Shown here: piece by piece, positions 7,395-57,104 of the stretch
How positions within the stretch are numbered: position 1 is the first letter of the stretch
How the letters are laid out: each line of letters starts with the position of its first letter
Assembly: GCF_001244995.1 (NCBI RefSeq)
Contig: NZ_LN869529.1
Location: 785,264 to 849,263 of the forward strand
Direction: 5' to 3'
Length of the DNA: 64,000 bases
From: Intestinimonas massiliensis (ex Afouda et al. 2020)
GTDB lineage: Bacteria > Bacillota > Clostridia > Oscillospirales > Oscillospiraceae
Translations under genes and position numbers: made by a program
Notes under the pieces: model-generated
What the model saw: only the letters and a program-made list of their open reading frames with translations
The model's database searches: none
Told to the model about the DNA's origin: nothing

Positions 7395-8326
7395 CCACCG
7401 AACACCGTCTCCATCCCCGATTTGGCGCAGCTCTCGGGGGCATAGCGCCAGCGCGTCAGGGTGCCGCCGGTGATGTAATAGGTAAGCGGAGGCGGTGCAG
7501 GCTCGGCAGGCAGCCGGTCGATGACCAGCAGCTTGATTTTCATCCGCTCGGGCAGGACCGCCTTGAGGTAGACCGATACCCGGTCCCCTTCCTGTAGCGC
7601 GGCGCGGGGCTCGGCCAGGCCGGAGAGGTTGGGAAACAGCTCGATGAAGGCGCCGTAATCCTTAATGCCCCGGACATAGCCGGACACGGTCATGCCGGGG
7701 GAGAGGCGGGCGGCGTTCTCCTGCCAGGTGCCCAGCAGCTCCCGGTGGGTCAGCTTGACCCGGCCCAGCTCCGGCTCGGTGTCCAGAACGGCCGTGAGGA
7801 TCTCCTGCCCCACGGTGAAGCGGCAGCCCGGATGGGGGATGCGGGAGACGGAAATGCGCTCGATGCCGATCATCGACACCAGCCCGCAGCCGATGTCTAC
7901 GAAGGCGCCGAAGGGTTCCAGATGGGTGACGGTGGCGGGGATGACCATGCCGGGGCGCAGCCGCTCCATGAGGGCCTCCTGAGCCTGAAGCTGGGCCCTG
8001 CGCCGGGAGAGAACGATGCGGAGATCCGGCTCTTCTCCTTCCACGGACTCTACTGTGAAGCAGACAGGCTTTCCGACCCTGGAGAGGATGGCAATTTCCC
8101 GGGTGGTGCCTTCGGAAATGCCCAGGGCGGCCTGGTCCCGGGGGATCCGGCCGGTATAGGGCCCCAGTCGGACGATGAGGTCGTGGTTGGCGTCGCAGAG
8201 GAGGACGCGCCCTTCCAAAATGGCGCCCCGGTCCCGTGCGGCCAGCAGGCCGCCCTTGGAGGCGCAGGCGGCCAGGTTATCCGGGGCGGACAGGCGTCGG
8301 CCCTCGGGCAGATAGCGGTCCAACAT
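7391..8326 (-). CDS. S1 RNA-binding domain protein (RpsA-like)
   Basis: A 311-residue protein with three S1/OB-like segments: a divergent one near residues 35-75 (GAILEGRVLLCDANHDLIV), a clear one near 123-197 (LRPGMVIPATVTHLEPFGAF) and another near 207-268 (LSPGMTVSGYVRGIKDYGAF). It probably binds RNA in the cytoplasm. It is much shorter than Gram-negative ribosomal S1, and such clostridial proteins are often labelled S1-like without proof of ribosomal function. It overlaps the end of rarA by four bases, tail to tail. The upstream bases contain AAGAAAGGAATG, a usable ribosome binding site. Confidence 0.85.
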   Translation of the reverse strand: MLDRYLPEGRRLSAPDNLAACASKGGLLAARDRGAILEGRVLLCDANHDLIVRLGPYTGRIPRDQAALGISEGTTREIAILSRVGKPVCFTVESVEGEEPDLRIVLSRRRAQLQAQEALMERLRPGMVIPATVTHLEPFGAFVDIGCGLVSMIGIERISVSRIPHPGCRFTVGQEILTAVLDTEPELGRVKLTHRELLGTWQENAARLSPGMTVSGYVRGIKDYGAFIELFPNLSGLAEPRAALQEGDRVSVYLKAVLPERMKIKLLVIDRLPAEPAPPPLTYYITGGTLTRWRYAPESCAKSGMETVFGG

Positions 8327-8406
8327 GGCTCACATTCCTTTCTCTTGTCCACGCGCGGAGAGCGATGGAGGCTGATAGGCCACTATATGCGCTGGCGGAG
8401 AAGGAA

Positions 8407-8435
8407 TTGACAGGGGACAAGGTGAAACCTATAAT
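8407..8435 (+). promoter_or_regulatory. Perfect consensus sigma-A promoter before repeat element
   Basis: TTGACA (8407-8412), 17-base spacer, TATAAT (8430-8435): an exact match to consensus. The -35 lies in unique sequence, and the -10 is the first six bases of repeat copy 1. The expected transcript start, near 8442, is just before the first hairpin. Confidence 0.85.
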
Positions 8436-8700
8436 AATGTCTACGGCATAAACCGCCAAGCGGTTTATGCGTGCGGCCACTGCTGCATCATTTCATCAAA
8501 AAGGGCTATAGATAGCCCTTTTGATGAAGTTTAGACATTGCTACAATGCGTCTTTCCTCTGGAGCGCCGGATTGCTCCAGCGGAAGGTGCAAGGTTTTCT
8601 GGCTCATTTGCCACAAAACCTTGCACCTGGAACAAAGCCAATTGGCCTCGAAAGCATGGGGATTCAAGGCTTTCGGCTTTGTTCAGTACGCATTACAATA
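8430..8700 (+). repeat. Palindrome-rich dispersed repeat, copy 1 (long form)
   Basis: A 271-base non-coding element that shares both ends and two hairpins with 56031-56160. Its ends form an imperfect inverted repeat of the pattern TATnnTAATnnnTAC. Five consecutive dyads are visible: 8446-8470 (11 bp, CAA loop), 8492-8528 (17 bp with one bulged A), 8554-8585 (7 bp plus 4 bp), 8585-8628 (14 bp arms) and 8630-8684 (10 bp plus an inner 7 bp). Dyads 2-4 are absent from copy 2. I see no open reading frame of substance. It fills most of the 8327-8753 gap upstream of the DUF951 gene. It could be a MITE-like mobile repeat or a structured leader RNA. Confidence 0.85.
8492..8528 (+). terminator. Terminator-like hairpin inside repeat copy 1
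   Basis: The core GGGCTAT / ATAGCCC is followed by TTTTG, and flanking A and T runs extend the stem to 17 bp with one bulge. Because the arms are A- and T-bordered, it could stop transcription in either direction, including read-through from 8407. Confidence 0.5.
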
Positions 8701-8753
8701 GTAGAAATTGATTCGCGGCGTTGTGACTGAAAACGTGAAAGGGAGGGAGCGGC

Positions 8754-8948
8754 ATGGACGTCCGGGTCGGCGACGTGCTGGAATTGAAAAAGGAGCACCC
8801 CTGCGGCAGTAAGAGCTGGAAGGTCCTGCGGGTCGGCATGGATTTTCGTATGAAGTGCGAGGGCTGCGGCCATGAGCTCATGCTGCCCCGCAGCAAGGTG
8901 GAAAAGAGCATCAAAAAAATCAAACGCCCCGGGGAGGCGGGATCATGA
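8754..8948 (+). CDS. DUF951 family protein
   Basis: A 64-residue protein of the DUF951 family (YyzM-like in Bacillus). It begins MDVRVGDVLELKKEHPCGS and contains HPCGSKSWKVLRVG, then KCEGCGHELMLPRS, a pair of cysteines suggesting a small metal-binding or nucleic-acid-binding fold. Function is unknown; members are widespread in Firmicutes. AAAGGGAGGGA precedes the ATG. The stop codon overlaps the hisC ATG (ATGA arrangement), so the two are translationally coupled. The leader is the palindromic repeat element. Confidence 0.9.
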   Translation: MDVRVGDVLELKKEHPCGSKSWKVLRVGMDFRMKCEGCGHELMLPRSKVEKSIKKIKRPGEAGS

Positions 8949-10012
8949 AGAATTTTTGGAGCAAGCGGATTCGGGATATGGTCCCCTATGTGCCGGGAGA
9001 ACAGCCCAAGGATCGGAAATTTATCAAGCTGAACACCAACGAGAACCCGTATCCGCCGTCCCCGAAGGCGCTGGAGGCCATTCGGGCGGCTGTGGGGGAC
9101 GGCTTGCGCCTCTACCCGGACCCGGAGTGCGCCGAGCTGCGTGACGCCATCGCGGAGTATCACGGCCTCCCGTCCGATATGGTCTTTGCGGGCAACGGCT
9201 CTGACGAGATCCTGGCGTTCTGCTTCCAGGCCTTTTTTGACCCGGACCGCACCATTTTGTTCCCCGACATCACCTATAGTTTTTACCCGGTTTATGCGGC
9301 CTACTTTGGTTTGACCTTCCGGGAGGTGCCTCTGGACGGGGACTTTGGAATGCCGGTGGCCGAGCTGTGCCGCGGCGGCAGCGGAGGCGTGGTGGTGGCC
9401 AACCCCAACGCGCCCACCGGCCGGGCCATCGAGCTGCATGCGCTCCGGGCCATTTTGGAGTCCAACCGGGACTGTGTGGTGCTGGTGGACGAGGCCTATG
9501 TGGACTTTGGGGCCCAGTCGGCGGCCGGGCTGGTGCCGGAGTATGACAACCTGGTGGTGGTCCACACCCTGTCCAAGAGCCGATCCCTGGCGGGCCTGCG
9601 GGTGGGCTATGCGCTGGGCCAGCCCAACCTGACGGCGGCGCTGCGCTGTGTCCGGGACTCCATCAACTCGTATACCGTGGACCGGCTGGCCCAGGCGGGG
9701 GGAGCCGCCGCGATGCGGGACCGGGCCTACTTTGAGGCGACGGCGGCCAAGGTACAGGCCACCCGGGAGCGGACGGCGGCCCGCCTGCGGGAGCTGTGCT
9801 TTACGGTGTACCCCTCCGCCGCCAACTTCATTTTTATCTCCCACCCCGACCGGGCCGCCCGGGCGCTTTTGGCAGGCCTGCGGGAAAAGGGCGTATTGGT
9901 CCGCTGGTTTGACCGGCCCCGCATCGACAATTACCTGCGGGTCTCCATCGGTACCGACGAAGAGATGGATGCCTTCTGCGCCGCCGTGCAGGAGCTGCTG
10001 ACAAAAACCTGA
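8945..10012 (+). CDS. hisC: Histidinol-phosphate aminotransferase
   Basis: Fold-type I PLP aminotransferase that converts imidazole acetol phosphate to histidinol phosphate in histidine synthesis. In its 355 residues, KLNTNENPYPPSP is near residue 29, VVANPNAPTG near 150, VDEAYVDF near 180, and the PLP lysine is K211 in HTLSKSRSLAGLRVG. It is about 18 kb from the main his operon, which lacks a hisC, so this is probably the cell's histidine transaminase; related HisC-like enzymes can also act on aromatic substrates. It overlaps the DUF951 gene by 4 bases. Confidence 0.93.
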   Translation: MKNFWSKRIRDMVPYVPGEQPKDRKFIKLNTNENPYPPSPKALEAIRAAVGDGLRLYPDPECAELRDAIAEYHGLPSDMVFAGNGSDEILAFCFQAFFDPDRTILFPDITYSFYPVYAAYFGLTFREVPLDGDFGMPVAELCRGGSGGVVVANPNAPTGRAIELHALRAILESNRDCVVLVDEAYVDFGAQSAAGLVPEYDNLVVVHTLSKSRSLAGLRVGYALGQPNLTAALRCVRDSINSYTVDRLAQAGGAAAMRDRAYFEATAAKVQATRERTAARLRELCFTVYPSAANFIFISHPDRAARALLAGLREKGVLVRWFDRPRIDNYLRVSIGTDEEMDAFCAAVQELLTKT

Positions 10013-56030: not shown

Positions 56031-56160
56031 TATAATAATATCTACGCCATAAACCGCCAAGCGGTTTATGCGTGCGGCCACTGCCGCATCATTGCACCTG
56101 AACAAAGCCAAAAGCCTTGGGATTCAGGGCTTTTGGCTTTGTTCAGTACGCATTATAATA
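56031..56160 (+). repeat. Palindrome-rich dispersed repeat, copy 2 (short form)
   Basis: A 130-base relative of 8430-8700. It starts TATAATAATATCTACG and ends GTACGCATTATAATA, forming the same imperfect terminal inverted repeat. It holds only the first dyad (56048-56070, 10 bp, CAA loop) and the last dyad, here a perfect 19 bp stem (56098-56116 with 56128-56146) with an 11-base loop. Dyads 2-4 of copy 1 are missing, with the junction at CATT/TTGCACCTG. A -35-like TTTTCA lies 17 bases before its TATAAT. It ends 44 bases before the rbgA start codon. Confidence 0.85.
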
Positions 56161-56204: not shown

Positions 56205-57104
56205 ATGGACATCCACTGGTATCCGGGGCACATGACTAAGACCCGGCGCATAATTCAGGCCGATCTCAAGCTGGTAGACCTGGTGGCGGAGGTCATCGAT
56301 GCCCGTATCCCCATCTCCAGCCGGAATCCCGACATTGATGAGCTGGTGGGGGACAAGCCCCGGCTCATTATTCTGAACCGGGCTGACCAGGCCGATCCGG
56401 AACAGACCAGGGCCTGGACCCGCTGGTTTAAGACAAGAGGCTACGCCGTCCTGGAAACCGACAGCAAGACGGGGGGCGGGGTGAATCAGTTTTCCGCTGT
56501 CATCAAGGATGCGCTCAAGGAGCAGATTGCCCGCTGGCGGGAAAAGGGCCAGGTAGGCCGCCCGGTGCGGGTGATGGTGGTGGGGGTGCCGAACGTGGGC
56601 AAATCCACCTTTATCAATAAAGTGGCAAGGCGAAAATCGGCCAAGGCGGGAGACCGCCCTGGGGTCACCCGTGGAAAACAGTGGGTGGCGGTGGATGCGG
56701 GACTGGATCTGCTGGACACGCCCGGTATCCTGTGGCCCAAGTTCGAGGACCAGACGGTGGGCCGGAACCTGGCGTTTACCGGCGCCATCAAGGACGAGGT
56801 GATGGACGCTGAGACGCTGGCCTGTTATTTGATGGAGACGCTGGCGGAGCGCTATCCCCAGGCGCTGCTGGAGCGCTACAAGCTGGAGCTGCCCCCGCGG
56901 GCCCAGGATGAGGAGACGGGGGGGCTCTCCTATGGCTACGACCTGCTGGAGCGGGCTGCGCGAAAGCGCGGGTTCCTCATTTCCGGCGGCGAGCCGGATA
57001 CCGAGCGCATGGCCAAGGTGTTGCTGGATGAATTCCGGGCCGGCAGGCTGGGGCGCTTTACACTGGAGACACCGGAAGGGGCGGAAGCGTATGGCGACGG
57101 CTGA
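56205..57104 (+). CDS. rbgA: Ribosome biogenesis GTPase RbgA (YlqF)
   Basis: Circularly permuted GTPase needed for late 50S assembly. In its 299 residues the permuted order is visible: G4 (IILNRADQAD) near residue 51 comes before G1 (GVPNVGKSTFIN) near 127 and G3 (DTPGIL) near 172. The N-terminus IHWYPGHMTKTRR is the family mark. AAAGGAG precedes the ATG. rplS-rbgA-rnhB is a conserved order; here a palindromic repeat sits between rplS and rbgA. Confidence 0.97.
   Translation: MDIHWYPGHMTKTRRIIQADLKLVDLVAEVIDARIPISSRNPDIDELVGDKPRLIILNRADQADPEQTRAWTRWFKTRGYAVLETDSKTGGGVNQFSAVIKDALKEQIARWREKGQVGRPVRVMVVGVPNVGKSTFINKVARRKSAKAGDRPGVTRGKQWVAVDAGLDLLDTPGILWPKFEDQTVGRNLAFTGAIKDEVMDAETLACYLMETLAERYPQALLERYKLELPPRAQDEETGGLSYGYDLLERAARKRGFLISGGEPDTERMAKVLLDEFRAGRLGRFTLETPEGAEAYGDG

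Follow-up and report, generated by a model that had tools for sequence, protein, structure and literature searches.

Results

A repeat between promoter and gene at two loci

The window, by which we mean the whole 64,000-nucleotide stretch of DNA analyzed here, contains two copies of a short repeat, each lying between a promoter-like sequence and a protein-coding gene (Table 1). Copy 1 precedes a gene for a DUF951 protein, and copy 2 precedes a gene for a ribosome-binding GTPase, which we take to be YlqF/RbgA-like. The promoter at copy 2 consists of TTTTCA and TATAAT separated by 17 bp, with no extended -10, and no terminator-like site was found in or near copy 1. The initial annotation had placed repeats with shared ends at these positions, and we located them there. 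BLAST aligned bases 1–66 of copy 2 (56031-56160) to copy 1 at 94% identity (E 8e-23) and its right end (query 62–130) at 80% (E 1.7e-14), a similarity far beyond chance. The repeat had also been described as having no coding capacity. This holds in the sense that no ORF of at least 60 amino acids lies wholly within copy 1; four ORFs of 67–71 amino acids and one long antisense ORF overlap it.

Table 1 Features of the two repeat-bearing loci (positions in the window)
Feature	Position	Strand	Remarks
Host sigma70-type promoter at copy 1	8407..8435	+	TTGACA 8407-8412, 17-bp spacer, TATAAT 8430-8435; 12/12 consensus match
Copy 1, left 7-bp target duplication TATAATA (= -10 box)	8430..8436	+	
Copy 1, element proper, 257 bp, full-length type, ATGTCTAC...GTACGCAT	8437..8693	+	Empty site in 6 sister-genome sequences
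Hairpin H1, arms GCATAAACCG / CGGTTTATGC	8446..8470	+	Sequence; helix 2 of covariation analysis
Hairpin H2, TGCGGC / GCTGCA	8472..8487	+	Sequence; helix 3 of covariation analysis
Hairpin H3	8492..8528	+	Helices 4-5 of covariation analysis
Internal 7-mer TGCTACA between ...ACAT and ATGCG...	8539..8545	+	Junction of two domains
Hairpin H5	8554..8585	+	Sequence; helix 7 of covariation analysis
Hairpin H6	8585..8628	+	Helix 8 of covariation analysis
Hairpin H7, outer arms GAACAAAGCC / GGCTTTGTTC	8630..8684	+	Sequence; helices 9-10 of covariation analysis
Copy 1, right 7-mer TACAATA	8694..8700	+	One difference from left 7-mer
DUF951 protein gene, downstream of copy 1	8754..8948	+	Pfam PF06107, E 4.6e-29
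Copy 2, left 7-bp target duplication TATAATA	56031..56037	+	TTTTCA 17 bp upstream (4/6 to TTGACA)
Copy 2, element proper, 116 bp; H1, H2, H7 retained, middle deleted	56038..56153	+	Empty site in 7 sister-genome sequences
Copy 2, right target duplication TATAATA	56154..56160	+	Identical to left
Ribosome-binding GTPase gene, downstream of copy 2	56205..57101	+	PF01926, E 7e-17 (on L031:1175-2071)

Copies in the genome, the genus and the family

The description of the repeat as a two-copy element proved to be an undercount. In the host's own genome (3.1 Mb, 7 contigs) we recognized it at 18 places, comprising 3 full-length copies, 7 two-ended copies with internal deletions, 5 left ends alone and 3 right ends alone. 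The search of relatives that the initial annotation had proposed was likewise positive: the element is present in 7 of 11 genomes of the same genus at E ≤ 0.001, with a consensus query adding G005 as a weak case, and in 63 of 400 genomes sampled from the bacterial family, representing 36 of 106 genera, at E ≤ 1e-4. The family-wide search scored two candidates per genome, so that copy counts there are lower bounds. A blastn search with copy 1 gave no match in phages or plasmids, and the two exact end patterns gave none in viral contigs.

For closer comparison, 116 loci were fetched, among which a script detected 76 two-ended copies. Removal of one artefact (L254, minus strand) left 75, and removal of L234, which represents the same site as L231, left 74 non-redundant ones. 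Forty of the loci came from other genera and are not a random sample, 35 having been chosen from near-full-length family matches, with 3 full copies and 2 mini copies added. The distance between the 7-mers that flank the element is about 255 bp in full-length copies and ranges from 44 to 257 bp. The two 44-bp mini copies share the element's ends; their 7-mers are identical at L265 and differ at L266. At L140 (in G010) and L173 (in G006) the upstream 45 bp are nearly identical, so that one promoter is occupied by left parts of the element in two species, either through an old common insertion or through a repeated hit.

The element is flanked by 7-bp target duplications

Alignment of the copies placed the boundary of the element further inside than first described. 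The element proper begins with ATGTCTRC and ends with GTACGCAT, and the inverted repeat ATGYSTRC.GAAYAAA is found at both ends of two-ended copies. These terminal inverted repeats are imperfect, about 16–18 bp long, and follow the pattern ATGYSTRCTGAAYAAA; the repeat proper starts at ATG (ATGTCTRCTGAATAAAC / ATGCGTACTGAACAAAG). Outside it lies a 7-mer on each side. The two 7-mers are identical in 45 of the 74 non-redundant copies and differ by at most one base in 61, against a mean of 11.8 (maximum 22) and 33.6 (maximum 44), respectively, when the right 7-mers were permuted 20,000 times; in the other 13 copies they differ at two or more positions. The sequence itself varies between sites (TATGATA, TACAATA, TAAAATA, TATTTTA, TAGTATA, TACTCCA and others), and where the left 7-mer is not TATAATA, the same 7-mer stands on the right in 23 of 42 copies. 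Since the 7-mers agree within a site and vary between sites, they belong to the target and not to the element. The TATAAT that had been read as part of the terminal inverted repeats is thus target sequence, seen at the ends because the element sits in doubled TATAATA-like DNA. That these TATAAT-containing ends are a duplicated host -10 box tells us more than any other feature.

Sister genomes carry empty sites

The comparison of occupied with empty sites, another check named in the initial annotation, gave clear results at both loci of the window. In sister genomes of the genus, the flanks joined without the element align straight through. The site of copy 1 is empty in 6 of 6 sister sequences fetched (in two of them as two adjacent pieces), all with TTGACA and TATAAT 17 bp apart, and that of copy 2 is empty in 7 of 7, all with TATAAT at the same place. 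Partial flank matches were also found in G003, G004, G008 and G009 for copy 1 and in G002 and G004 for copy 2. The empty-site query covered 11 of 25 joined sites, and the sequences of relatives were aligned for five sites. At a third such site, that of L120, a copy in G010, 3 of 3 sister sequences fetched are empty and all have TATAAT. The other two gave no clean empty -10: the relatives of L037 (3 sequences) carry another 7-mer, and the single relative of L034 is misaligned at the site. Given the empty sites at both window loci, the two copies are insertions and not ancestral sequence. Neither of the two outcomes that the initial annotation had named as refuting it was thus observed.

The duplicated target resembles a -10 box, with the element's left end mostly towards the -35

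The left 7-mer has the composition T70 A66 T46 A49 A64 T69 A72 in 74 copies, which is TATAAT plus A. To count -35-like sequences within the genus, we reduced 94 left-like matches to 62 left ends by leaving out right ends read backwards, antisense hairpins, matches with more than 4 mismatches and those with short flanks. TTG stands exactly 17 bp upstream in 23 of these 62, while no other spacing between 10 and 29 accounts for more than 4; on the right side of same-genus copies it stands at 17 bp in 1 of 44. When either TTG at 16–18 bp or TGn upstream of the 7-mer was scored as a promoter signal, 44 of 75 left flanks had one (shuffled mean 9.7, maximum 19) and 31 showed neither sign. The right flanks were not enriched, with a signal in 12 of 75 (shuffled mean 8.3, maximum 20).

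The signal accompanies 26 of 32 TATAATA targets, 15 of 26 other TANNATA targets and 3 of the remaining 16. These last, like the 13 copies whose 7-mers differ at two or more positions, show that the pattern does not hold throughout. Among the TANNATA sequences other than TATAATA, the 15 of 26 at targets compare with 16 of 64 in the window (p 0.006), a background taken from one window only. TATAATA is itself often promoter-like in the window, which has 61% G+C: 4 of its 8 occurrences are so, and the element itself accounts for 3 of the 8. Judged by these sequence signals, what most copies have duplicated is the -10 box of a sigma70-type promoter. Promoter targeting may nevertheless be just a sequence preference, and a plain liking for the word TATNATA may be enough. 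Five copies (L127, L125, L132, L139 and L162) have atypical targets such as TACTCCA and TACTTGA, seemingly against the promoter rule; they possibly lie inside coding regions.

Insertion is oriented. The promoter signal is found on the left only in 38 and on the right only in 6 of 74 copies (p 9e-7), and the 7-mer reads better as a -10 box in the forward direction in 48 and in the reverse direction in 14; apparently reversed copies exist, for example L130, L138 and L235. Either the unlike ends of the element, an explanation put forward for TnGBS (PMC3942029), or selection may have caused the bias. Past the right end, an ORF with a ribosome-binding site begins within 260 nt downstream in 66 of 75 copies, and 41 of 75 have one upstream on the opposite strand. 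In the host's own genome, the ten genes tested downstream of copies fall into unlike families (DUF951, GTPase, patatin, radical SAM, EAL, AAA, GreA and others).

Covarying hairpins and a body probably of two units

RNAalifold predicted 95 base pairs on 22 full-length copies of the genus. Pairing is possible in 96.1% of cells, two-sided changes occur at 39 of the 95 pairs, and none of 500 shuffles reached any of five covariation measures. The dyads pointed out in the initial annotation are therefore real, borne out by both sequence and covariation. Its further suggestion of a dispersed structured RNA is partly supported, in that the hairpins covary and the element lies downstream of promoters; as to a named RNA family, the copy 1 region (window 7900-9100) matched nothing in Rfam at the gathering score. 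Matches to mir-2, at 26 bits with a cutoff of 45.5, were taken for palindrome artefacts. The covariation could also be explained by upkeep of the palindromes at the DNA level. Perfect or near-perfect palindromes of 36–50 bp, made of two inverted ends only, occur at L275, L283 and L321, alone or in tandem with longer units.

The predicted fold consists of two closed domains. One forms by pairing between the left end and an internal AGACATT-like stretch, the other by pairing between an internal AATGCGT and the right end. Between the domains, 48 of 58 full-length copies have a 7-mer set in the layout CAT-N7-ATGC, and in 28 of these it reads TGTTACA or TGTTGCA. Tandem insertions at one -10 box were found at L128, L135 and L258, where the second left end begins exactly at the right 7-mer of the first copy; L239 also fits a loose tandem pattern and was excluded from this count. 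As the internal layout matches that of the tandem insertions, we infer that two tandem units fused to give the body. The internal TGCTACA of copy 1 is possibly a fossil target duplication left by a tandem double insertion.

Related ends and the search for an autonomous partner

The genomes searched yielded no autonomous partner with a transposase that could be read. In 10 genomes, the terminal inverted repeat pattern returned end pairs about 240 bp apart, the two 44-bp minis and some unpaired ends; no pair made by eye was a long one. A pattern that excludes the bases of the short element matched 18 times, in 12 of 400 genomes, and these matches represent related miniature elements or remnants and multi-copy ends in G283.

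Two groups of related ends deserve description. One genus (g3; genomes G012 and G117, loci L316-L335) carries related but different repeats with similar ends and more varied AT-rich targets. At no more than one mismatch, the ends matched 100 times in G012 and 72 times in G117 (3 and 4 for a reversed control pattern), and in the 20 regions examined they cap units of various lengths, the shortest a perfect palindrome of 36 bp and the longest 277 bp. Among the matches listed, which take in part of those in G117, four wider end pairs in G012 (3.0, 3.6, ~6 and ~6 kb) were examined: 15 of their 18 ORFs of at least 100 amino acids match Pfam (pyruvate kinase, dehydrogenases, cold shock, aconitase X and others), none of them as a transposase, and 3 match nothing.

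In G283, two related ends are present, one (ATGCCTACTGAACAAATGCCC...) four times and the other (ATGTCAGCTGAACAAATGAGG...) twice (L279, L282, L284, L285, L304 and L310). They are identical over the 92–96 bp seen, and the contigs then end about 95 bp inside, a pattern that a multi-copy insertion sequence would cause; by this assembly pattern, the G283 ends probably mark one. Just inside the second end there is a possible gene start, MKEYR. At convincing scores, the ends were absent from 16 genomes of the genus (one end), 399 of the family (the other end) and 393 of the order (both ends), and these searches did not recover the interior that the ends enclose. At E ≤ 1, the other end had short weak matches in 251 of the 399 family genomes, which we took for chance or for the bare terminal repeat. 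The 18-bp terminal repeat of a G283 end matched 15 stretches of genome contigs, of which two have the G283 flank and one (L345) resembles the left end; the remaining 12 were taken for chance. A viral match to a G283-type end was rejected, as it sits within a phage gene. The first 43 specific bases had no exact match in plasmids for the first end or in viral contigs for the other.

Discussion

We propose that the repeat is a MITE, about 255 bp long and in its shortest copies 44 bp, moved in trans by a putative transposase into TATNATA-like targets of the -10 type with a 7-bp duplication, a reading to which we assign a probability of about 0.87. The MITE-like, non-autonomous nature put forward in the initial annotation is upheld by the dispersed copies, target duplications, empty sites and lack of coding capacity. 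The transposase, probably one with DDE chemistry, would make a 7-bp staggered cut in DNA resembling TATNATA, in most cases at the -10 box of a sigma70-type promoter, and the element would insert mostly with its left end towards the -35. Promoters are ordinarily expected to break when DNA inserts into their core. Here, repair would double the whole -10 hexamer, and the left box would keep its spacing to the old -35, so that the promoter retains both boxes; from its sequence, it is left whole and probably still works. From its place immediately after host promoters, the element is expected to form a transcribed leader: transcription would start just inside it and continue through the hairpins into the gene, giving the gene a hairpin-rich 5′ leader with, presumably, a near-neutral effect on it. 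Copies would later decay by deletion, often leaving only the left 40–75 bp beside the promoter; left-end-only copies before genes are the expected outcome if only the promoter-side end is kept.

Several other readings deserve to be weighed against a transposed MITE. An immobile, ancestral structured leader RNA, that is, a regulatory 5′ UTR element belonging to these promoters, would account for the covarying hairpins, for the usual position directly between promoter and gene and for the persistence of left-end-only copies in leaders. As the primary explanation, it is refuted by the empty sites at both window loci, and the 7-bp duplications, the unrelated downstream genes and the reversed and tandem copies also speak against it; we regard it as highly improbable. 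Movement by a tyrosine recombinase, which would make this a site-specific element with a 7-bp crossover, is a better rival, though still an unlikely one. The 7-mers would then be the overlap, and in the joined ends the arms CAGTACGCAT / ATGTCTRCTG would serve as binding sites. Joined ends do place inverted repeats on either side of 7 bp, tandem arrays share one 7-mer, an internal site of equal layout is found in most full-length copies, and insertion is oriented. However, a recombinase tolerant of mismatches would usually leave unlike sequences at the two ends, and an intolerant one would keep a single 7-mer; the 7-mer seen here varies by site yet matches on both sides. Conserved arms, moreover, were not seen by eye in the target flanks. 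A Xer/dif-like reading of the joined ends was set aside, as the spacer is 7 and comparison by eye with dif gave no convincing match. Retrotransposition was rejected as well, since the 5′ end would lie upstream of the expected RNA start.

The remaining alternative accepts a MITE and denies it any preference for promoters beyond AT-rich DNA: insertions that break genes would have been lost, and the pattern would reflect survival. TATAATA is often promoter sequence in a window of 61% G+C, and the related repeats of another genus use more varied AT-rich targets, as this reading would have it. On the other hand, the 7-mer consensus equals the -10 box base by base, and random intergenic insertion would give neither the exact spacing of 17 to TTG nor the orientation bias. 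TANNATA targets other than TATAATA also still carry promoter signals more often than the one-window background. Survival as the sole cause thus appears doubtful to us. Going beyond the preferred reading of a MITE with -10-type targets, the transposition complex might read the promoter itself, as DNA bound by RNA polymerase or sigma or as melted -10 DNA, and the element might be adapted as a portable 5′ leader that regenerates the promoter it hits, carries no terminator, has its hairpins held by RNA selection and records, in its tandem-unit body, repeated hits on the same -10 box. Promoter recognition by the complex would explain the orientation. We offer this extension tentatively, as clearly less likely than not.

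Structured and non-autonomous repeats are familiar from other bacteria. The bcr1 repeat makes a TTTAT duplication, and BOX and RUP of pneumococcus are modular or short hairpin repeats that are non-autonomous; BOX and RUP belong to a different host, and the likeness drawn here to the present element is one of description. RUP is named among the abbreviations of a review of MITEs (PMC10969869). In the Bacillus cereus group, bcr1-bcr3 are MITE-like and often transcribed within UTRs, and bcr10 and bcr18 have conserved secondary structure (PMC3446304). They too are alike by description, with a different host, and the excerpt of that report describes no insertion into -10 boxes (PMC3446304). Correia elements share with the present one their shortness, lack of coding sequence, terminal inverted repeats and position next to genes (PMC10969869). 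While they and other bacterial MITEs bring promoter sequences of their own and affect promoters, the present element strikes a promoter of the host, whose -10 is duplicated, and targeting of -10 boxes goes unmentioned for those MITEs in the excerpted text (PMC10969869).

Promoter-directed transposons are likewise known. The Mutator-like TnGBS/ISLre2 (p-MULT 3) and 13 elements of the ISKra4 group (p-MULT 4) target sigmaA promoters 15–17 bp upstream of the -35, make 8- or 9-bp duplications, have inverted repeats ending in C and encode a transposase; insertion of TnGBS/ISLre2 is oriented, which was credited to unlike inverted repeats, and targeting of promoter regions was proposed to limit the cost to the host (PMC3942029). 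The present element resembles TnGBS/ISLre2 as a promoter-aimed DNA transposon with oriented insertion, but it differs from both groups in lying within the -10, in duplicating 7 rather than 8–9 bp and in having ends A...T instead of a terminal C (PMC3942029). The combination of A...T ends and 7-bp repeats, compared with that published set only and as far as its excerpt goes, had no match there (PMC3942029). Among the open-access papers listed by our searches, judged by title and the start of the abstract, we found neither this family nor -10-box insertion with promoter duplication, which for an open-access set is weak evidence of absence. Promoter-directed transposons and structured MITE-like repeats are already known; the element is best explained as a new MITE family with an unusual, promoter-copying choice of target.

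If so, a 7-bp cut and a -10 target together lead to a copying of the promoter sequence and would amount to a neat "safe landing" rule. The element is widespread in one bacterial family and would add a structured leader of 40–260 nt to unrelated genes. It offers a direct test of whether a bacterial transposase can read promoter complexes, and its 7-mer pairs could help to map -10 boxes in uncultured genomes.
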